In this document: one piece after another, positions 45,764 to 54,523 of the stretch
Position numbering within the stretch: the first letter of the stretch is position 1
Layout of the letters: each line of letters starts with the position of its first letter
Assembly: GCA_937920635.1 (NCBI GenBank)
Contig: CAKZUE010000070.1
Coordinates: 1-64,000, forward strand
DNA: 64,000 nt
Source of the DNA: an uncultured Bryobacteraceae bacterium
Lineage (GTDB): Bacteria > Acidobacteriota > Terriglobia > Bryobacterales > Bryobacteraceae
Reading direction: 5' to 3'
Program-made: the position numbers and the translations under genes
The notes under the pieces: model-generated
Told to the model about the DNA's origin: nothing
Databases searched by the model: none
Seen by the model: the letters and a program-made list of their open reading frames with translations, nothing else

Positions 45764-46834
45764 TCAGACAGCGGCGGGCGCCGGGGCTCGCTTCATCAAT
45801 GCGCCGGCGATCTCGTCGAGCGGCAGCACCTGCCCGGCGGCGCCGAGGCGGACCGCCTCGCGCGGCATGCCGTAGACCACGCAGGTCTCCTCATCCTGCG
45901 CGAGGGTTTCCGCGCCGGCGCGCCGCATCTCGAGCAGCCCGGCGGCGCCGTCGGCGCCCATGCCGGTGAGCAGGACGCCGGTCGAATGCGCGCCGGCTTC
46001 GCGGGCGACGCTGCGGAACAGGACGTCGACCGAGGGCCGCTGATAGCAGACCTTGGGCCCGTCGTGCAGGCGTGTGCGCCAGCCGCCGCCGGGGATGCGC
46101 TCGACCTCCAGGTGGCGGTTGCCCGGCGCGACCACGGCCATGCCGTTCGACAGCGTCTCTCCGCCCTCCGCCTCCTTCACCTCGAACGGGCAGACCTTGT
46201 TCAGCCGCTGGGCGAAAGTGGCGGAGAAGCCCGGCGGGATGTGCTGGGCGATGACGATGGGCGGCATCGACGCCGGCAGCGCGGTGAGCACGCGCTCGAT
46301 GGCCACGGTGCCGCCGGTGGAAGCGCCCATGGCGATGAGGTGTTGCGCGGGGGCGCCGTTTCTCGGGGCCATTGCCGGGCGCGGCGCGGGAAGCCGCGGC
46401 GCCACGGGCGGCGCGGGCGCCGCGCGCAGCTTGGCGGCGGCCGCCGCCCGCACCCGCTGCGGCAGGTCGTCTTTCAGATCCGCGACCGAATAGGGTCCGC
46501 CGGGTTTGGCCAGCACATCCACCGCGCCGCGGTTCACCGCCTCCAGCGCGGCGCGGGTCGAGTTCTGGGTGAGCGAGCTGACCACGATCACCGGCAGCGG
46601 ATAGTGCTTCATCAGCTTCTCGAGGAACGTCAGCCCGTCCATGCGCGGCATCTCGACGTCGAGCGTGATCACATCGGGCCGCAGCGCGACGATCTTGTCC
46701 CGCGCCACGAAGGCGTCCGGCGCCGTTCCGGCCACTTCAATGTCGGGCTGCTGGTTCAGCACGTCTGCCAGCACTTTTCGGACAATGGCCGAATCGTCCA
46801 CCACCAGCACGCGGATCTTTCGCGGATTCGTCAT
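45764..46834 (-). CDS. cheB: Chemotaxis protein-glutamate methylesterase CheB
   Basis: A 356-residue response regulator-esterase. The receiver (~6-125) has D59 in VITLDVEMPRMDG. A Pro/Ala linker leads to the esterase domain with the catalytic Ser in GASTGGT, His in AQHIPPGFS and Asp in GMGADGAAG. It demethylates or deamidates MCP glutamates in response to CheA phosphorylation. The start is fixed by an ATGA overlap with cheX (46831-46834). It is the last gene of the operon and converges on the FecR gene. Confidence 0.95.
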   Translation of the reverse strand: MTNPRKIRVLVVDDSAIVRKVLADVLNQQPDIEVAGTAPDAFVARDKIVALRPDVITLDVEMPRMDGLTFLEKLMKHYPLPVIVVSSLTQNSTRAALEAVNRGAVDVLAKPGGPYSVADLKDDLPQRVRAAAAAKLRAAPAPPVAPRLPAPRPAMAPRNGAPAQHLIAMGASTGGTVAIERVLTALPASMPPIVIAQHIPPGFSATFAQRLNKVCPFEVKEAEGGETLSNGMAVVAPGNRHLEVERIPGGGWRTRLHDGPKVCYQRPSVDVLFRSVAREAGAHSTGVLLTGMGADGAAGLLEMRRAGAETLAQDEETCVVYGMPREAVRLGAAGQVLPLDEIAGALMKRAPAPAAV

Positions 46835-47292
46835 GACTCCTCCTCCCAGTTCAGGGTCACCGCCACCTCGCCCTGCTCCAGCGGAAAGCGCAGCCAGCAT
46901 CCGCCCCCGCACGGCTCGCCTCCCCAGTCGGCCTCGGGCGGTGCGATCCGCAGCCGCCCGTGCGGCTCCAGCCGGCTCAGCGTGGCGCCGCAGAGCATGT
47001 TGGCCAGTTCCGAGGCCATTTGCAGCACCTCCTGCTCGCCGACACCGGCTTCCTCCAGCCCCAGAAACGCCGCTGCCAGCCGCCGCGGCGCCTCCCCCGC
47101 CAGCGCCACCCGCAGCGCGCCGCGGGCGCTGCCTTCAAACCGCGCCACGGCCTGCACCGCGCCTTCCCCGCTGAACCCGCCCGCCGACGGCTCGTCGATG
47201 GGGAATTCGAAACACATCGTCTCAAGCACTTCCAGCACGGCTTCCTCGAGCGCCTGCCGCACCTCCGCCCGCTCCGGTTTCGCCTCCTGCAT
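46831..47292 (-). CDS. cheX: CheX/CheC-type CheY-P phosphatase
   Basis: A 153-residue protein with the CheX fold: VLEVLETMCFEF..., SGEGAVQAVARFEGSARGALRVALAGEAP and the catalytic E95-x2-N98 in ASELANML. These enzymes remove the phosphate from CheY. Only one such E-x-x-N site is present, as in CheX. It stands between cheY and cheB and overlaps cheB by 4 nt. It probably takes the place of CheZ, which is absent. Confidence 0.85.
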   Translation of the reverse strand: MQEAKPERAEVRQALEEAVLEVLETMCFEFPIDEPSAGGFSGEGAVQAVARFEGSARGALRVALAGEAPRRLAAAFLGLEEAGVGEQEVLQMASELANMLCGATLSRLEPHGRLRIAPPEADWGGEPCGGGCWLRFPLEQGEVAVTLNWEEES

Positions 47293-47294
47293 GG

Positions 47295-47708
47295 CTAGAA
47301 CTCCTCCCGCCCCGCGCCCGCCCGGCCCAGCAGCCCGCCGAGCACCTCGCTCAGCCGCTCCGGAGGGAACGGCTTGCGCACATAGTCGCTCGCCCCCAGC
47401 CGCAGCAGCGCCCCCACGCGGTTCTCCGTGGAATCGGTCGAAACCACGACCACCGGAATTGAACGCAAGCCCGGATCGGATTTCAGCTCGCCGATCAACT
47501 GCTCGCCGTCCATCACCGGCATGTTGATGTCGGTCAGGATCAGATCCACCGCCGGCGAGGCTGTCGAGGCGCGCAGCCTGTCCAGCGCCTCGCGCCCGTT
47601 GGAGGCTTCCAGGATCTCCGACGTTTCGAACCCCGCCAGCGCGACGGTCCGCTTCACAAAGGCCCGCATCACGGGCGAATCATCGACGATCATCAGGCGA
47701 CTCGGCAT
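47295..47708 (-). CDS. cheY: Chemotaxis response regulator CheY
   Basis: A 137-residue single-domain receiver. Phosphoacceptor D60 is in DLILTDINMPVMDG, the acidic pair is D9-D10 in IVDDS, T/S and K are in VVSTDS and VRKPFPP. Phospho-CheY would act on a motor or on pili. AGGAGG lies 6 nt before ATG 47708. The first codons overlap the end of cheD by 16 nt. cheX begins two bases after its stop codon, so the two are tightly packed. Confidence 0.93.
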   Translation of the reverse strand: MPSRLMIVDDSPVMRAFVKRTVALAGFETSEILEASNGREALDRLRASTASPAVDLILTDINMPVMDGEQLIGELKSDPGLRSIPVVVVSTDSTENRVGALLRLGASDYVRKPFPPERLSEVLGGLLGRAGAGREEF

Positions 47709-48229
47709 TCGGCACCTCCTGCCGCGGACGCCACAGGCGCCCCGGCCCTCAATTCCCGCACCACGCCCGAAGGCTCGCTCACCGTGCAGCGGCCTGTCGC
47801 CACATTCAGCCGCACCGTGCGCGACACCGAGCCCCCCACGTCTTCTCCATGCACCAGCACGCCCGCCCTCCACAGAATCTTCCGCACGGCGGCATGGTTG
47901 CGCCGGCCGATGTTGAACACGCCGCCCTGGTCCACCACGTTGGCCCCTCCCGCCAGCCGCACCTGGAGGCGCCGCTTCTCGGCGCCCTTCTCATACGCCT
48001 GGCGGAACAGCAGCGGCGTGCCCGTGTCGGCATAGCGGTAGGGGTTGGCCCGGCCCTGCGTCTCGCGGTCCACCGCGCTGTCCGGCAGCATGAAGTGCAG
48101 CAGCCCGCCCACCTTCGCCACCGGATCCCAGATCACCACGGCGATGCAGGAGCCCAGCGCAAACGTCACGATCTCGGCCGGCTCGCCGGTCACCTTGCAG
48201 TCTCCCACGCCCACGACCATCGTCTTCAA
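47693..48229 (-). CDS. cheD: Chemoreceptor glutamine deamidase CheD
   Basis: A 178-residue protein. The catalytic Cys is in ALGSCIAVVIWDP, His in LLHFMLPDS and Thr in FNIGRRN-type segments near ANVVDQGGVFNIGRRNH. CheD deamidates receptor glutamines and stimulates the phosphatase CheC. I place the start at TTG 48229 (reading MKTMVVGVGD): AGGAGG lies 5 nt upstream of it but 14 nt from the in-frame ATG 48220. The TTG overlaps the cheR stop as TTGA. The end overlaps cheY by 16 nt. Confidence 0.85.
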   Translation of the reverse strand: MKTMVVGVGDCKVTGEPAEIVTFALGSCIAVVIWDPVAKVGGLLHFMLPDSAVDRETQGRANPYRYADTGTPLLFRQAYEKGAEKRRLQVRLAGGANVVDQGGVFNIGRRNHAAVRKILWRAGVLVHGEDVGGSVSRTVRLNVATGRCTVSEPSGVVRELRAGAPVASAAGGAECRVA

Positions 48230-49074
48230 GCGCCCCTCCTGCCAGCGGCGCCAGCCCCGGCGGGCTTCCGGTACACCGCCGGCCTGACGTAATCCAATCC
48301 GTGCCGGATGCCCATCAGCCCTTCGCTGTGCCCGATCAGAAACCAGCCGCCCGCCTCCAGCCGGTCGGTGAAGCGCCCCACCAGCCGCTCCTGCGTCGGC
48401 TTGTCGAAATAGATCATCACATTGCGGCAGAAAATCACCTGGAAGCGCGGCAGGAAGCTGAAGTCCTCCATCAGGTTCAGCCGCCGGAACTCGACGCGCG
48501 CCCGCCACTCCGGCTTCACCCGCACGCTGCCCTCCCAGCGGCCCTCGCCGCGCTGGAAATACCGCTGCGCCCAGCCCGGCGGCAGCCCTTCGAGCCGCTC
48601 TTTCGCATAGATGCCCGCCTGCGCCTTCTCGAGCACCCGCGTCGAGATGTCGGTCGCCAACAACTGGAGCGTCCCGATCCGCTCCGCGCCCAGCACGTCA
48701 GCCGCCGTGAACAGGATCGTGTAGGGCTCCTCGCCCGTCGAGCAGCCGGCGCTCCAGATCCGGATCGTCCCGCGCCGGGCCAGCGGCGGCAGCACCGCCT
48801 CGCGCAGCAGCGCGAAGTGCTGCGGCTCCCGCAGGAAGCCCGTGTGGTTTGTCGTCAGCGCGTTGATCAGCCGCTCGAGCTCTTCGCCCGTGCGGTCGGC
48901 CTTCACCGCTTCCACATACTCCGACAGGCTGCCCAGCCCCAGCTCCTGCATCCGGCGCGCCAGCCGCGCGTTGACCAGCGCCTCCTTGCCCGGCCGCAGG
49001 TCGAGCCCGAAGCTGCGGTAGGCCAGCTCGCGGATTTCGCGGAATTCCCTCTCCGTCAACCCCTGCATCGGCAT
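48226..49074 (-). CDS. cheR: Chemotaxis protein methyltransferase CheR
   Basis: A 282-residue methyltransferase. The N-terminal helical domain (MPMQGLTEREFREIREL) and the SAM-binding core are present, with SAGCSTGEEPYT, LLATDISTRVLEKA and the later FQVIFCRNVMIYFDKPTQ blocks. It methylates receptor glutamates using SAM. The ATG (49074) or an alternative two codons on (49068) is preceded by GGGGACGGG. Its stop overlaps cheD. Confidence 0.94.
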   Translation of the reverse strand: MPMQGLTEREFREIRELAYRSFGLDLRPGKEALVNARLARRMQELGLGSLSEYVEAVKADRTGEELERLINALTTNHTGFLREPQHFALLREAVLPPLARRGTIRIWSAGCSTGEEPYTILFTAADVLGAERIGTLQLLATDISTRVLEKAQAGIYAKERLEGLPPGWAQRYFQRGEGRWEGSVRVKPEWRARVEFRRLNLMEDFSFLPRFQVIFCRNVMIYFDKPTQERLVGRFTDRLEAGGWFLIGHSEGLMGIRHGLDYVRPAVYRKPAGAGAAGRRGA

Positions 49075-49095
49075 CCCGTCCCCTGTCCGGTCTCC

Positions 49096-50925
49096 TCAGT
49101 TGCGCAACACCGCTCCGGCTTCGCCCGCCACCGCCGCCAGGTCCAGGATCAGCCCCACGCGCCCGTCGCCCAGAATCGCTCCGCCGGCGAAGCCGCGCAC
49201 CTCGCGGAAGGCCGGCCCCAGGCTCTTGATCACCACCTCCTGCTTGCCTGCCAGCTCGTCCACCAGCAGGCAGAACACCCGGCTGCCGCTTTCGCCCACG
49301 ATCACCAGCCCGTCGCACGGATCCTCGCTGCGCGGCGCCACGCCCAGCTTCGCCGCCAGCCGCACCAGCGGCAGGAGCCGCCCGCGCACCATCACCATCT
49401 CGCCCCTGCCTTCCACGGTGAAGACCTGTTCGGGCGAGGCCTTGAACATCTCCCGCACGGCGAAGATCGGCACGATGAACCGCTCGCCCCCCACCGACAC
49501 GATCAGCCCGTCGATGATGGCCAGCGTCAGCGGCACCTTCAGCAGGAACGTCGTGCCCGACCCGCCCGACGAGACGATCTCGATCCGGCCGCGCAGCTTG
49601 TTGATGTGCTTGCGCACCACGTCCATGCCCACGCCGCGGCCGCTGACGTCGGTCACCTGCTCGGCCGTCGAAAAGCCCGGCTCGAAGATCAGGTGGAACA
49701 CCTCCGCGTCGCTCAGCTTGGCGTCGGCCGCAACCAGGCCCCGCTCCACCGCCTTGCGGAAGATCCTGTCGCGGTCGAGGCCCCGCCCGTCGTCGCTGAT
49801 CTCGATCACGATCATGCCCGCCTGATGCGACGCCGCCAGCCGGATGCGGCCCGCCGCCGGCTTGCCCGCCGCCTCGCGCTCGGCCGGCGCCTCCAGCCCG
49901 TGGTCCATGCTGTTGCGCAGCATGTGCACCAGGGGGTCGTGCAGCTCCTCGACGATCGTGCGGTCCAGCTCGACGTCCTCGCCGTGCAGCTCCAGCTCGG
50001 CCTGCTTGCCCGACTTGCGCGCCAGATCGCGCACCAGCCGCGTCATCCGCCGGAACAGGTGCCCCACCGGCACCATGCGCATCGCCATCGCCGTCTTCTG
50101 CACCTCGCCGGTGACGCGCGTCAAGTGCGCGATGTCGCGTTGCAGCTTCGGCGACTTCACCTGCGCGAAGTCCGGATTGTGCCTCAGCATCGTCTGCGCG
50201 ATCACCAGCTCGCCCACCATGTCCACCAGATACTCGAGCTTGGCCGTGTCCACCTTGACGAGCGACGCGTCGCCGCCCGCGCGGCCCGCGCCCGCCGCCG
50301 GAGCCTCCGCCGGACCGGCCGCCGCCTCGCGCTGCAGCGCCGGCTCGTCCGCCGGCGGCGCCGCAACGGCCTCTTCCGGCCCGCCAGCGGCCGCCGCTTC
50401 AATGCGCGCGATCAGCGCGTCCGGCTCCGGCGGCGCCGCCGCCGCGCGGCCTGCCGCGGCCGCCTCGATCGCATCGAGCCACGACCGCAGATAGTCGCCC
50501 GCCGCCAGCACCACATCCACCGCCGCCGGCCGCATCACCAGCTTGCCGTTGCGCGCCAGATCGAGCAGCGTCTCGGTCTCGTGCGCCACCCGCTGCATGA
50601 CCGAGTAGTCGAGGAACCCGGCCAGCCCCTTGATCGTGTGAAAGCTGCGGAAGGCCGCGTGCAGCGTCTCCTGCGTGTGCACGCCCTGCTCGATCTCGAG
50701 CAGGCACGCTTCGATCCTGGCCAGGTGCTCGCGCGCCTCGACCAGGAAGTCCTGCACCAGCTCCGGATCCTGGGCCAAAGGATTGGCCGCCCCTGCGGCC
50801 GACTCCATGCTCTCGGCCAGCGCCCGCAGCCCTTCGGCCGCGTCCGGCCGCTCCGGCGCGGCCTCCGCCGGGCGGTCCGGCCCAGCCGCCGGACCGCCCT
50901 CGATCCTCTCCCTGTCCTGCGCCAT
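49096..50925 (-). CDS. cheA: Chemotaxis histidine kinase CheA
   Basis: A 609-residue kinase. The Hpt domain (~52-150) has the phosphoacceptor H96 in SFHTIKGLAGF. A Pro/Ala-rich linker follows, with no clear P2 domain. Then come the dimerisation domain (VDTAKLEYLVDMVGELVIAQTML), the ATPase domain with ISDDGRGLDRD and GVGMDVVRKHI, and the CheW-like P5 domain (GLIVSVGGERFIVPIFAVREM). Absence of a separate P2 means CheY must dock otherwise. It follows mcp in the same operon. Confidence 0.95.
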   Translation of the reverse strand: MAQDRERIEGGPAAGPDRPAEAAPERPDAAEGLRALAESMESAAGAANPLAQDPELVQDFLVEAREHLARIEACLLEIEQGVHTQETLHAAFRSFHTIKGLAGFLDYSVMQRVAHETETLLDLARNGKLVMRPAAVDVVLAAGDYLRSWLDAIEAAAAGRAAAAPPEPDALIARIEAAAAGGPEEAVAAPPADEPALQREAAAGPAEAPAAGAGRAGGDASLVKVDTAKLEYLVDMVGELVIAQTMLRHNPDFAQVKSPKLQRDIAHLTRVTGEVQKTAMAMRMVPVGHLFRRMTRLVRDLARKSGKQAELELHGEDVELDRTIVEELHDPLVHMLRNSMDHGLEAPAEREAAGKPAAGRIRLAASHQAGMIVIEISDDGRGLDRDRIFRKAVERGLVAADAKLSDAEVFHLIFEPGFSTAEQVTDVSGRGVGMDVVRKHINKLRGRIEIVSSGGSGTTFLLKVPLTLAIIDGLIVSVGGERFIVPIFAVREMFKASPEQVFTVEGRGEMVMVRGRLLPLVRLAAKLGVAPRSEDPCDGLVIVGESGSRVFCLLVDELAGKQEVVIKSLGPAFREVRGFAGGAILGDGRVGLILDLAAVAGEAGAVLRN

Positions 50926-50979
50926 GGCTGTGGGTCACTCCCCGGATGCGCTTTCGTCCTTCAGGAGCCGCCGCGCGGC

Positions 50980-52554
50980 TCAGAAATCGCGGAACCCGTC
51001 CTCGAGAGGAATCTCCATGCGCGCCGCCGTCTTGACGCCCAACGCGCGCGGAGCCTTCGCCGCATGCAGAAGCGGGGAGGCCGCCCGCGCCGGCGACGCG
51101 GCCGCGTGCTCCTCTTCGCCCGCGCCCACCAGCTCGCGCAGCCGGTCCACGGCCGCCTGCAGGTGCTGGGCCTGCGCCGACATCTCCTCGCCCGCCGACG
51201 CGCTCTCCTCGGCGCTGGCCGCCGTCGATTGCGTCACCTGCTGCATCTGCGCCACGGCGCGCGCGATCTGCTCGATGCCCCGGGCCTGCTCCTGGCTGCC
51301 CATGTGCACCTCGCTGGCCAGCACCCGGATCCGCGACGCGTTCTCGAACACCCGGGTGACGCAGGCCGCCACCTCGTCCAGCCGCAGCTTGCCCTCGTTG
51401 GAGCGCACGATCGACTCCTCGATCAGATCCGAGGTGTCCTTGGCCGCCTGGGCGCAGCGCTGCGCCAGGTTGCGGACTTCATCGGCCACCACCGCAAAGC
51501 CCATGCCCGCCTCGCCCGCCCGCGCCGCCTCCACCGCCGCGTTCAGCGCCAGGATGTTGGTCTGGAAGGCGATCTCGTCGATGACGCGGATGATGCGGCT
51601 GATCTTCTCGCTCGAGGCGTTGATCTCCTTCATCGACTCGATCATCTGGCCGAGCTTCTCATTGGTCTCCTTCAGCAGCTGATCGGCCTTCTCGGTTTCG
51701 CCCGCCGCCAGCGAGGCGTTTTCAGCGTTCTTCTGCGTCATCGAGTTCAGCTCTTCGGTCGAAGCCGACGTCTGCTCGAGCGACGCCGCCTGTTCGCTGG
51801 ATCCCTGCGCCAGCGCCTGCGACGAGCTCGACACCTGCTGCGCCGCCCCGGCCACCTGCCGCGCGCCGTCGGCGATCTCCGCCGCGATCCGCTTCAGCGT
51901 CCGGTCCGCCCCGCGCATCACCCACATCGCCGCGCCCGACACCGCCGCCGCCACCAGCACGCCCACGATCAGCAGCAGCATCGCCAGCCGCGATTGCGAG
52001 GTGGCGTCCGAGGCTGCCTGCTCCAGCAGCCGCCGCTGGAGCGCCGCCATCGCCGCCGAGTTCTTCCGCGTCCGCTCGAGCAGCGGCGCCAAGACCGACG
52101 CCTGCATCCTCGTGGCTTCGTCGAACCGCTGCGCGTCCACGTGGCCGAGGAACACCGCCGTCTGCTGCGTCCACTCCTCCAGGTCCCGGCGCAGATCCGC
52201 GTTCAACCGCTTGCCCTCGTCCGACCACAGCAGCGGCTGGATGGCGTTGACCGCCTCGCCCGCCTCGCCCAGGGCCCTTTGCAGATTCGCCCGCGACTGC
52301 CGCGTCAGCTCCGCATCGCCCGTCATCGCGCCCAGCAGCACGCCGCGCTGCGACGCCTCGCCCTGGGCCACGCTCCGCTCCACCGCCATCGCGTACTGGA
52401 GCTTCTTCCCTTCGCTGTTGACCGTGTTCTGCACCAGCCCGCTCAGCATCGACGCGCTGAAGACCCCGCCGGCGCCCACCAGCAGCAGCAGCGCGCCGGT
52501 CAGCCCCAGGCTCAGGTACATCTTGCTGCCCAAGTTCCGTTTCGCAAACGACAT
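50980..52554 (-). CDS. Methyl-accepting chemotaxis protein
   Basis: A 524-residue receptor. The first helix (~15-35) and the second (~193-215) flank a four-helix-bundle-like ligand domain (~40-190). A short HAMP-like segment follows ([21 protein letters not shown]). The signalling domain has the conserved tip [39 protein letters not shown]. The C terminus lacks the NWETF-type pentapeptide that binds CheR/CheB in enterobacteria. It lies between cheW and cheA, so it is likely the dedicated receptor of this array. Confidence 0.95.
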
Positions 52555-52615
52555 CGCTTCTTCCCTTCCTTTTCCTGGTAAAACTCCCGTGATCCTTCCG
52601 CCCGCGTTCCGCCGC

Positions 52616-53164
52616 TCAGGCTTCGGCCGGCACGGCTTCCTCGTCCAGCGGCAGCAGTTCCAGCCCGCCGAGCTCCTGCGCCGTCATCACCTCGTCGATG
52701 TCGAGCAGGATCTTCACCCGCCCCTTCACCTTCGCCAGCCCCAGAATGTAGGGCAGGCGCACGTCCTCGCCGAACGACGGCGTGTCCTCGATCTCCTGCT
52801 CCTGGATGGTGAGCACCTCGCTGACGCCGTCGACAACGACGCCCATCAGCAGCGGATCGCCCGAGCCGCTCCTGCGCCGCACGTGCAGCACGATGATGCA
52901 GGTGCGCGAGGTGGCCTCCGCGTCCGGCATGCCGAACTTGCGCCGCAGATCCACCACCGGAATCACCTTGCCCCGCAGGTTGATCACGCCCCGGACGTAG
53001 GGCGGCGTCTGCGGCACCTCGGTGATCTCCTGAAGCCCCATGATCTCGCGCACCTTCAGCACGGCCACGGCGAACTCCTCGCGGCCGAGGTGGAAAACGA
53101 GATACTTGCCCTGGCGGCCCTGCGCCGCCCTGGCCTGTTTGCTCGGAACAGTCTGCTTGTCCAT
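52616..53164 (-). CDS. cheW: Chemotaxis coupling protein CheW
   Basis: A 182-residue scaffold linking receptors and CheA. SH3-like subdomains are seen in [47 protein letters not shown] and IIVLHV. A C-terminal extension ([28 protein letters not shown]) follows. ATG 53164 has AAGGA 12 nt upstream, and 34 extra codons on the 5' side are unlikely to be translated. It is the first gene of the eight-gene cluster. Confidence 0.92.
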
Positions 53165-53337
53165 GATGTCCGGCGGTCCTTGCCTGCTTCGGCCGCGCCC
53201 GGCGGATTGCGGGATCCGCGGGGCGCGGCTCTCACCGCTCATATCGGATAGTCGTGGGGGAATCACAGGAAAAGTGGAGGCGGTGATATGCTGGAGCCAA
53301 GTCCGCCCGCCCTGGCGAACGCGGGCAAGGAGGCTTG

Positions 53338-53865
53338 ATGCGTTCTGGGATACTGACCGCGATCCTGGCCGCGCTGGCTCTGGCCCAGCCGGCCGCGCCG
53401 CCGAAAACCCATCTCAAACCCGGCGATGAAGCGCCCGACTTCCGCCTGCGCACCACCGCCGGGCAGGAGTTCCACCTGGCCGCGCACCGCGGCAAGACCG
53501 TCGTGGTCGCCTTTTTCCCGGCCGCCTTCACCGGCGGTTGAACGAAGGAAATGACCGCGTACCAGGCTGGTATCGCAGAATTTGAAAAGGCCGGCGCCAC
53601 GGTGATCGGCGTCAGCACAGACAACCTGCCGTCGCTCGGCCACTGGGCGCGCGAGGTGCTCAAGCTCAGCTTCCCGCTGGCCAGCGACTTCGCCCGCCGC
53701 GAGGTGGCGCGCGCTTACGGGGTTCTCAACGAGACGAGCGGCATCGCCAACCGCGCGACCTTCGTCATCGGGCCCGACGGCCGCATCCTGCACGTCGAGG
53801 AAGGCTCGTCGGCGATCGACCCGGAAGGCGCGCTCGCGGTGTGCCGCCGGACGAAGCGGCAGTAA
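53338..53865 (+). CDS. Peroxiredoxin with in-frame TGA at the peroxidatic Cys, probable selenoprotein (PrxU-like)
   Basis: Read through TGA 53539-53541 this gives one 175-residue exported peroxiredoxin. The signal peptide is ~1-19, then GDEAPDFRLRTTAGQEFHLA, VVVAFFPAAFTGG-TGA-TKEMTAYQ, ATVIGVSTDNLPS and ATFVIGPDGRI, all typical of AhpC/TSA (Prx) enzymes. In the family the motif is FTxxC(T/S)KE, so codon 68 is the peroxidatic cysteine. The only lesion is that TGA; both halves are in the same frame and otherwise intact. Only one Cys remains, near the C terminus. AAGGAGG at 53327-53333 lies 4 nt before ATG 53338. The alternatives are a recent nonsense mutation or a sequencing error. Confidence 0.8.
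53542..53583 (+). promoter_or_regulatory. Candidate bacterial SECIS hairpin in the peroxiredoxin mRNA
   Basis: Starting just after the TGA: GCGTACC (53557-53563) pairs with GGTA-T-CGC (53569-53576) with one bulged U. The 5-nt apical loop is AGGCU, with G at positions 2 and 3. AAAT (53549-53552) and ATTT (53580-53583) can add a lower stem across an internal loop. The loop begins about 22 nt after the TGA, within the distance seen for bacterial SECIS elements. Confidence 0.6.
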
Positions 53866-53884
53866 CGCCGCCCGGGCGCGCGGC

Positions 53885-54523
53885 TCAGGGCAGCTCGCGG
53901 ACCCAGATGTCGCGGAACTGCATGTGCCCCTCGCCGCCCGAGTGGAGCTGGAGCGCGATGGTGCCGGTCAGGAACGGCGCGCGCGGATCGGTGAAGTCGA
54001 TCATCGGCACTCCGTTCAGGCGCGAGACGTAGCGGTTGCCGTTGACCGTGACCAGCATCTCGTTCCACTCGTTCTGGCGCACGACGGTCTCGTTTTCCGG
54101 CGCGGGCCAGACGATCCAGGCGCGGCCGAAGCCGTAGACGCCGCCCGTGTGGCGGCCGATGGTGCAGTCGATTTCGAACTGCGCGCCCTGGCTGACGTCG
54201 GCCGTGCCCGGTTTGAAGCGCGTGTGGAAATAAACGCCGGAATTCCCCGTGCCAATGCACTTGAATTTCAGCGAGAGCTGGAAATTCCGGTAATCCTTGG
54301 CTGTTTCCAGATAGCCGTATTCTTTTGTGACGGCGCGGCCGATGAGCACGCCATCGGCCACCGTCCATTCCTCCTTGCCGACCGGGTTCCAGCCGGCGAG
54401 GTCCTTCCCGTTGAACAGTTGCACCCAATCCTCGCCGGGCGGGCGAGCGCCCTTGGGCAACTGGGCCAGCAGAACGGCGGCTGCCGCCGCGCACAGGACA
54501 GCGATGAGCAGGGAACGCTTCAT
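53885..54523 (-). CDS. Secreted 3-keto-disaccharide hydrolase domain (DUF1080) protein
   Basis: A 212-residue protein. The signal peptide is ~1-21. The rest is one DUF1080 beta-jelly-roll domain: WVQLFNGKDLAGWNPVG, EEWTVADGVLIGRAVTKEYGYL, FQLSLKFKCIGTGNSGVYFHT, EFEIDC-like strands, and a GHMQFRDIWVREL end. The family includes 3-keto-beta-glucan hydrolases and many lectin-like proteins of uncertain activity. It converges on the peroxiredoxin and is 10 bp downstream of the aminotransferase gene's stop codon on the same strand. Confidence 0.88.
   Translation of the reverse strand: MKRSLLIAVLCAAAAAVLLAQLPKGARPPGEDWVQLFNGKDLAGWNPVGKEEWTVADGVLIGRAVTKEYGYLETAKDYRNFQLSLKFKCIGTGNSGVYFHTRFKPGTADVSQGAQFEIDCTIGRHTGGVYGFGRAWIVWPAPENETVVRQNEWNEMLVTVNGNRYVSRLNGVPMIDFTDPRAPFLTGTIALQLHSGGEGHMQFRDIWVRELP

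Follow-up and report, generated by a model that had tools for sequence, protein, structure and literature searches.

Peroxiredoxins that carry selenocysteine (Sec) are already known as a kind, represented by PrxU and the TxxU proteins, and the family described here is a widespread member of that kind. Peroxiredoxin TxxU is a listed family of bacterial selenoproteins in the available parts of two papers (PMC13188914, PMC9312934), and the part available of a third gives 91 Sec peroxiredoxins from 78 organisms (PMC5029168). The accessible portions of two others count four selenoproteins in three families for the Acidobacteria (PMC1794560) and three known selenoprotein genes in one Acidobacteriota genome (PMC12013277), and one or more of those selenoproteins could be members of the present family. 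The main texts of the selenoprotein literature, in the parts consulted, name Acidobacteriota at most twice, and among the papers found on selenoproteins or selenocysteine in Acidobacteriota, in Solibacter or in AhpE, or by wider searches, none deals with this family by its title or the start of its abstract. The original prediction, which considered selenoproteins to be rarely described in this group, is right as far as those portions of the literature go; the Sec trait itself is nevertheless common, with a tRNA-Sec found in 192 of 257 genomes of the order (E 1e-11).

The gene studied here lies in the window, the whole stretch of 64,000 nucleotides that was analysed, on the + strand, as do all of its features given below. 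It runs from ATG 53338 to the stop TAA at 53863-53865 (53338..53865) and, according to sequence and relatives, specifies 175 residues including Sec. The start codon is preceded at 4 nt by AAGGAGG (53327..53333), which we take to be a Shine-Dalgarno-like motif. As had been described from the sequence, two open segments in one frame are parted only by the TGA at 53539-53541, the sole internal stop, and the flanks read AFTGG before it and TKEM after it. Gene callers that take TGA as a stop would cut the gene, again as foreseen, and the ORF finder output for the locus holds only the piece that follows the TGA, 53551-53865. In the read-through translation, an AhpC-TSA domain spans the TGA (Pfam PF00578, 122.2 bits against a cut-off of 26, residues 28-152), which places homology on both sides of an in-frame UGA, as is looked for in selenoproteins. 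This gene, seemingly broken by a stop, is very probably a whole one for an exported peroxide-destroying enzyme with Sec at its working site.

The TGA occupies the peroxidatic position and is the presumed codon for Sec (U68). An alignment of homologs, proposed earlier as a check on whether relatives carry Cys or TGA there, gave one or the other in every one of 123 distinct sequences, the window included: TGA in 94, TGC in 27, TGT in 2 and nothing else. This is the pairing of Cys and Sec at a UGA by which selenoproteins are recognised, and the ratio of 94 to 29 is not a frequency, because the genomes to be read were hand-picked from 150 listed rows. The site was covered in 165 places, of which five were dropped by an active-site motif filter (four from L050, with a frameshift, and one distant peroxiredoxin in L048) and 37 were merged as duplicates. 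The matches listed for the 257 genomes of the order make up those 150 rows, 119 of them with one TGA, 30 with no stop and one, L129 (G242:C230), with one TGA and one TAA inside. In the genus of the window all four other genomes (G142-G145) have TGA, and two of these, G144 and G145, are single-contig assemblies. A strict-pattern scan of assembled contigs gave 45 loci, all of whose record titles name Acidobacteria or lineages placed within them.

The same codon was found elsewhere in the phylum. A phylum-wide draw of 396 genomes had matches in 82 at E 1e-38, and by a hand count that includes the window's row, 77 of 91 rows have one TGA and 14 have no stop, the 58 strongest all having one TGA. 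TGA is the peroxidatic codon in 29 phylum loci (L173-L201) and in 20 more places (L206-L225, one being L192); the latter were picked among one-TGA rows and show the position of the TGA but not its frequency. Peroxiredoxin-like genes of other types in the phylum (L206-L211, L218, L221, L223) also have TGA at the peroxidatic site, with the motifs TPV-U, AFTGG-U-TAEC or TLEC, and AFSPG-U and with different predicted hairpins, and Acidobacteriota appear to have several kinds of Sec peroxiredoxin side by side.

Downstream of the TGA, folding and covariation define a SECIS hairpin at 53557..53576, GCGUACCA-GGC-UGGUA(U)CGC, with the layout GCG-UACC-A-GGC-U-GGUA-(U)-CGC and an apical loop at 53565-53567. 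The original prediction had a hairpin starting about 22 nt after the TGA; AGGCU does stand at 53564, 22 nt on, but that point is the start of the loop and the stem already starts at 53557. For bacterial SECIS elements the available part of one paper (PMC13188914, section 5) gives a loop of 3-9 nt, a stem of 4-16 bp, a G in the first two loop positions, a spacing of 16-37 nt and an MFE of -7.5 or below. Applied by hand, these printed limits accommodate the predicted SECIS, which has a 3-nt loop (GGC), a stem of 8 bp with one bulge, a spacing of 23 nt and an MFE of -8.7 to -9.1 kcal/mol. An Rfam search of 53300-53900 gave four weak matches below the gathering score and no SECIS family. In the window sequence alone the hairpin is unremarkable, and it is convincing only through comparison with relatives: its folding is not above chance (z -0.60, with 50 of 200 shuffles folding at least as well), and 30% of synonymous-codon shuffles fold as well.

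This comparison separates Sec from Cys copies. Against synonymous shuffles the mean z was -1.80 in the 94 Sec copies and -0.07 in the 29 Cys copies, and at least three of the four core pairs are kept in 94/94 TGA copies versus 5/29 Cys copies. Across 86 distinct Sec stretches, pairing holds in 88.2% of cells, and both partners vary in six of the eight pairs. The covariation score, 0.134, compares with a mean of 0.049 for shuffles; none of 500 shuffles, which ignore kinship among the sequences, scored as high, and slid versions fall off. Further pair types among these stretches were not above shuffles (72/500). Pairing falls to 46.1% of cells in the 29 Cys stretches, whose covariation score lies within the shuffles (60/500). 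The 29 phylum loci (26 distinct) had been kept out of the drawing of the structure; 89.9% of their cells pair and their covariation score was reached by 0/500 shuffles, their number of pairs changed on both sides by 22/500, and their further pair types were not above shuffles (487/500). Paired changes include C-G to U-A (TAT CAG GCT GAT; L047, L125, L126, L161, L162), A-U to U-A (TTC CAG GCT GGA; L170) and, at the pair that closes the loop, A-U to G-C (L029, L051). Pairing is lost at the three lower pairs in 10 to 30 of the 86 rows, partly as a result of a shifted register in copies that have GGA there, and in one TGA copy (L192, the same place as L216) no comparable hairpin was found in the 30 nt folded. 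The element is a canonical bacterial SECIS with an apical GGC: compensatory changes maintain it in Sec copies, most Cys copies have lost it, and it is found again in other parts of the phylum. Some TGA copies (L192/L216 and L225) have TACCGGGACAA in place of the usual hairpin, with a larger, different stem predicted.

The genome of the host (G000), a draft of 91 contigs that is 98.4% complete, was searched for the Sec machinery, and all four genes named in the original prediction are there: selA (491.9 bits), selB (348.2 bits), selD (361.6 bits) and selC, the tRNA-Sec (75 bits), whose anticodon is given by ARAGORN as tca (UCA). A second tRNA-Sec match over the cut-off (49.6 bits) was rejected, being a tRNA-Ser by ARAGORN. 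The selD gene (L059, contig C17:59976-60881, - strand) has one in-frame TGA of its own, read by eye in AAG-U-ASKLSPK, which we take to be the place where SelD carries Sec or Cys, and SelD of this genome is therefore probably itself a selenoprotein. In five more peroxiredoxin- or thioredoxin-like genes of the genome the aligned codon is TGC, which in one of them (L229) encodes the second Cys in a WCGPC motif. A covariance model of the hairpin (R1) was also run against the genome for other SECIS elements; the query alone had a good score (E 3.6e-17), the three matches that followed standing at E 1.33, 1.74 and 3.15, and the search thus gave no new selenoprotein.

Across the order, 94 of the 118 genomes with a TGA copy in the matches listed have a tRNA-Sec. 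It was not found at E 1e-11 in the other 24, of which 21 have selB over the cut-off and one (G237) has selB in two pieces, while in G053 and G073 (79% and 80% complete), both with TGA copies, neither tRNA-Sec nor selB was found. A looser search of these 24 TGA genomes and of nine Cys-only genomes found two more tRNA-Sec, both in TGA genomes, and tRNA-Sec is therefore missed or missing in many drafts. Two of the nine Cys-only genomes without tRNA-Sec have selB over the cut-off. Some part of the machinery is present in 116/118 TGA genomes versus 19/26 Cys-only genomes (p 8e-5), a comparison that rests on unequal searches because the search for selB covered only the host genome and the 33 genomes in which no tRNA-Sec was found at E 1e-11. 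For tRNA-Sec alone there was no significant difference (94/118 versus 17/26, p 0.13). The class of Cys-only genomes is defined by the 150 rows listed, and a lower-scoring Sec copy could lie outside these.

Readings in which the TGA is not a Sec codon have to meet all of this evidence. A random nonsense change in a pseudogene, or a TGC miscalled in sequencing, would be in keeping with a draft assembly of 91 contigs and with a hairpin that does not exceed chance in the window alone. Neither accounts for TGA at exactly the same codon in 94 of 123 distinct sequences, those of four other genomes of the genus among them, and at the same codon in other parts of the phylum, nor for a frame that stays open for 104-114 codons after the TGA in the TGA copies, and we give this explanation next to no credence. 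The ATG at 53551, which follows the TGA and appears in the ORF finder output, brings to mind two separate products by design, namely a short exported piece and a protein of 104 residues made by reinitiation. Yet its Met is found in just 57 of the 94 TGA copies, Leu, Ile, Val, Ala or Phe standing there in the others, the conserved Pro/Thr before the TGA and the conserved Arg after it are both kept, and in the Cys relatives the protein is a single chain; such a design is scarcely credible. The Cys that some relatives have at the site would suit a UGA for which a suppressor tRNA or a changed code supplies a different amino acid (Cys, Trp). Against this stand the tRNA-Sec, SelA, SelB and SelD and a covarying hairpin, for which suppression should have no need, as well as two relatives (L009 and L036) in which the same gene ends with TGA, and we regard it as extremely improbable. 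The window gene almost certainly encodes a selenoprotein, namely a probably exported peroxiredoxin with Sec as its peroxidatic residue, and its translation as such is strongly supported by comparative genomics. This was the reading of the original prediction, and the sel genes, the restriction of the site to TGA or Cys codons and the covarying hairpin speak for it. With the genes and the covarying hairpin in place, SelB would bring Sec-tRNA(UCA) to the ribosome and recognise the hairpin, whose loop comes 23 nt after the UGA, and the UGA would be read as Sec and not as a stop.

The protein has the features of its family. It carries the AhpC/TSA domain over the gathering score, and an AlphaFold model, made with 24 sequences and with Cys drawn for Sec, has a peroxiredoxin fold (pLDDT 90.2, pTM 0.84; lower, 72, over residues 61-70). 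Foldseek matched this model to peroxiredoxins, with Sulfolobus Bcp4 first and AhpE of M. tuberculosis second. The motif PxxxTxxC/U with a distal Arg is formed in the read-through translation by Pro61 (53518..53520), Thr65 (53530..53532), U68 and Arg139 (53752..53754), the last being presumably the active-site Arg; site 68 and Arg139 are invariant in the 24 aligned sequences, and Pro61 and Thr65 are conserved in at least 90% of them. From its hydrophobic N-terminus, which ends in LAQ, the peroxiredoxin is predicted to be exported, with a putative signal peptide MRSGILTAILAALALA (53338..53385) cut before Q, a position that we assigned by the AxA rule. Q17 and APPK at 20-23 are nearly invariant in the 24 sequences. 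Outside the cytoplasm, to judge from the family, the selenol at position 68 would attack hydroperoxides, helped by Thr65 and Arg139.

The next step of the reaction is where two readings of the enzyme part. A C-terminal Cys, in the window Cys169 (TGC, 53842..53844), is present in 152/152 sequences, and 151 of these have no other Cys, the site aside, within the region compared, whose start lies some 52 residues ahead of the site. Because this Cys occurs in all the sequences compared, a Sec-Cys bond is possible, and on balance we favour Cys169 as the candidate resolving residue: the selenenic acid would most likely be resolved by it with formation of a Se-S bond to U68, which a thiol reductase would then reduce. 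We hold to this step with some reserve, given that the nearest solved relative by sequence, AhpE, has a PDB title that describes a 1-Cys enzyme. This same relative suggests a one-Sec enzyme in which Cys169 would be structural or unrelated and an outside thiol would resolve the selenenic acid directly. Cys169 lies in the C-terminal helix of the model (163-174), which is not known to be among the resolving positions of peroxiredoxins, and some other TGA-bearing peroxiredoxin types of Acidobacteriota, e.g. L206-L209, have no C-terminal Cys. Set against its unbroken conservation in the family, where it is almost always the only other Cys, a one-Sec enzyme with a structural or unrelated Cys169 is the less probable reading, although a real contender.

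A quick tree of 152 sequences requires a minimum of 13 changes at the site. Whichever of four rootings is used, 12 or 13 of them run from Sec to Cys; direction was set by parsimony, support is below 80 for 49 of 149 inner branches, and every phylum locus placed on the tree is a TGA copy (29, taken from the strongest rows), the 14 weaker no-stop rows having been left off. From this we infer about 13 Sec-to-Cys conversions, in which TGA would have become TGC or TGT in several lineages and the hairpin would then have decayed. The residues at +8 to +10, within the SECIS, are more varied in the Cys copies, of which 12/29 form one clade. Gln at +8 is CAG in 92/92 Sec copies versus 16/22 Cys copies and Ala at +9 is GCT in 66/66 versus 4/11; Gly at +10 is GGT in 86/89 Sec copies, and the residue entropy there goes from 0.26 bits in Sec to 2.40 in Cys copies. 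Position +4 shows the opposite (1.59 bits in Sec, 0.69 in Cys). One TGC copy (L148:355-402), from a genome with tRNA-Sec (G083), has the core SECIS stem and loop intact, as after a recent Sec-to-Cys change. Sec and Cys copies also occur in tandem (L025:3941-5171 and L040:4001-5128), the Cys copy being without hairpin.

We are inclined to propose, as a view with an even chance of being right, that Acidobacteriota have long used this exported Sec-Cys peroxiredoxin, present across the phylum, to defend the envelope, with Sec as the ancestral state, and that about a dozen conversions to Cys each freed residues that only the SECIS had imposed (YQAG). If so, the family would be a natural experiment on the cost of keeping a SECIS inside a coding sequence. 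With its Sec copies, Cys copies, tandem pairs and presumed repeated one-way conversions, it makes the constraint of the SECIS on protein sequence directly testable, as well as what Sec buys an exported peroxidase.

The gene neighbourhood was compared in 50 stretches, several of them short and the window included. The upstream gene (52616-53266), which we take to be CheW-like, is common to nine of them and the downstream gene (53885-54523), presumably DUF1080-like, to three, and no wide functional link was seen, since the neighbours are common to so few stretches. Upstream in the window, on the opposite strand, there is by eye a chemotaxis-like cluster (45764-53266, -), whose genes we would label CheB, CheR, CheA, a methyl-accepting protein and CheW.

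At least 118 of the order's 257 genomes have a TGA copy, as do 77/91 rows of the phylum-wide draw. Since these copies are this widespread and callers that read TGA as a stop would cut the gene, a widespread peroxidase may be absent from predicted proteomes. The family also joins the use of selenium to peroxide defence in a phylum little named in the portions of the selenoprotein literature consulted.

PrxU of Eubacterium acidaminophilum, with the TxxU family of PF00578, is like the window protein in having, in the available part of its description, a peroxiredoxin domain whose PxxxTxxU motif places Sec at the peroxidatic position (PMC13188914). The original prediction had drawn this comparison, and it stands for the Sec at that site; as to closeness, the PrxU model (NCBIfam NF040737) gives the window protein 67.5 bits, far below its cut-off of 270, and the nearest solved relative is AhpE. 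No NCBIfam model reached its cut-off with the window's protein. NF040737 matched 24/24 family members at E 1e-10 or better (best 8.8e-24). The window protein further differs from PrxU in its putative export signal, its conserved C-terminal Cys and its best solved match. That match, AhpE (Rv2238c) of Mycobacterium tuberculosis, reaches 78.7 bits (5id2) over residues 22-153, has a similar active-site stretch (FFPLAFTG) and superposes with a TM-score of 0.78-0.80 by the query's length. In contrast to AhpE, whose want of a conserved second Cys rests on its PDB title, the window protein has its site encoded by TGA, starts with a putative signal peptide and carries, beyond the matched 22-153, a helix with the C-terminal Cys of all 152 sequences. 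Its hairpin follows the bacterial SECIS consensus in the GGC loop closed by A-U, the distance from the UGA and the 8-bp stem with one bulge, and departs from it in having its own sequence and, in the window's subtype, a bulged U on the 3' side.
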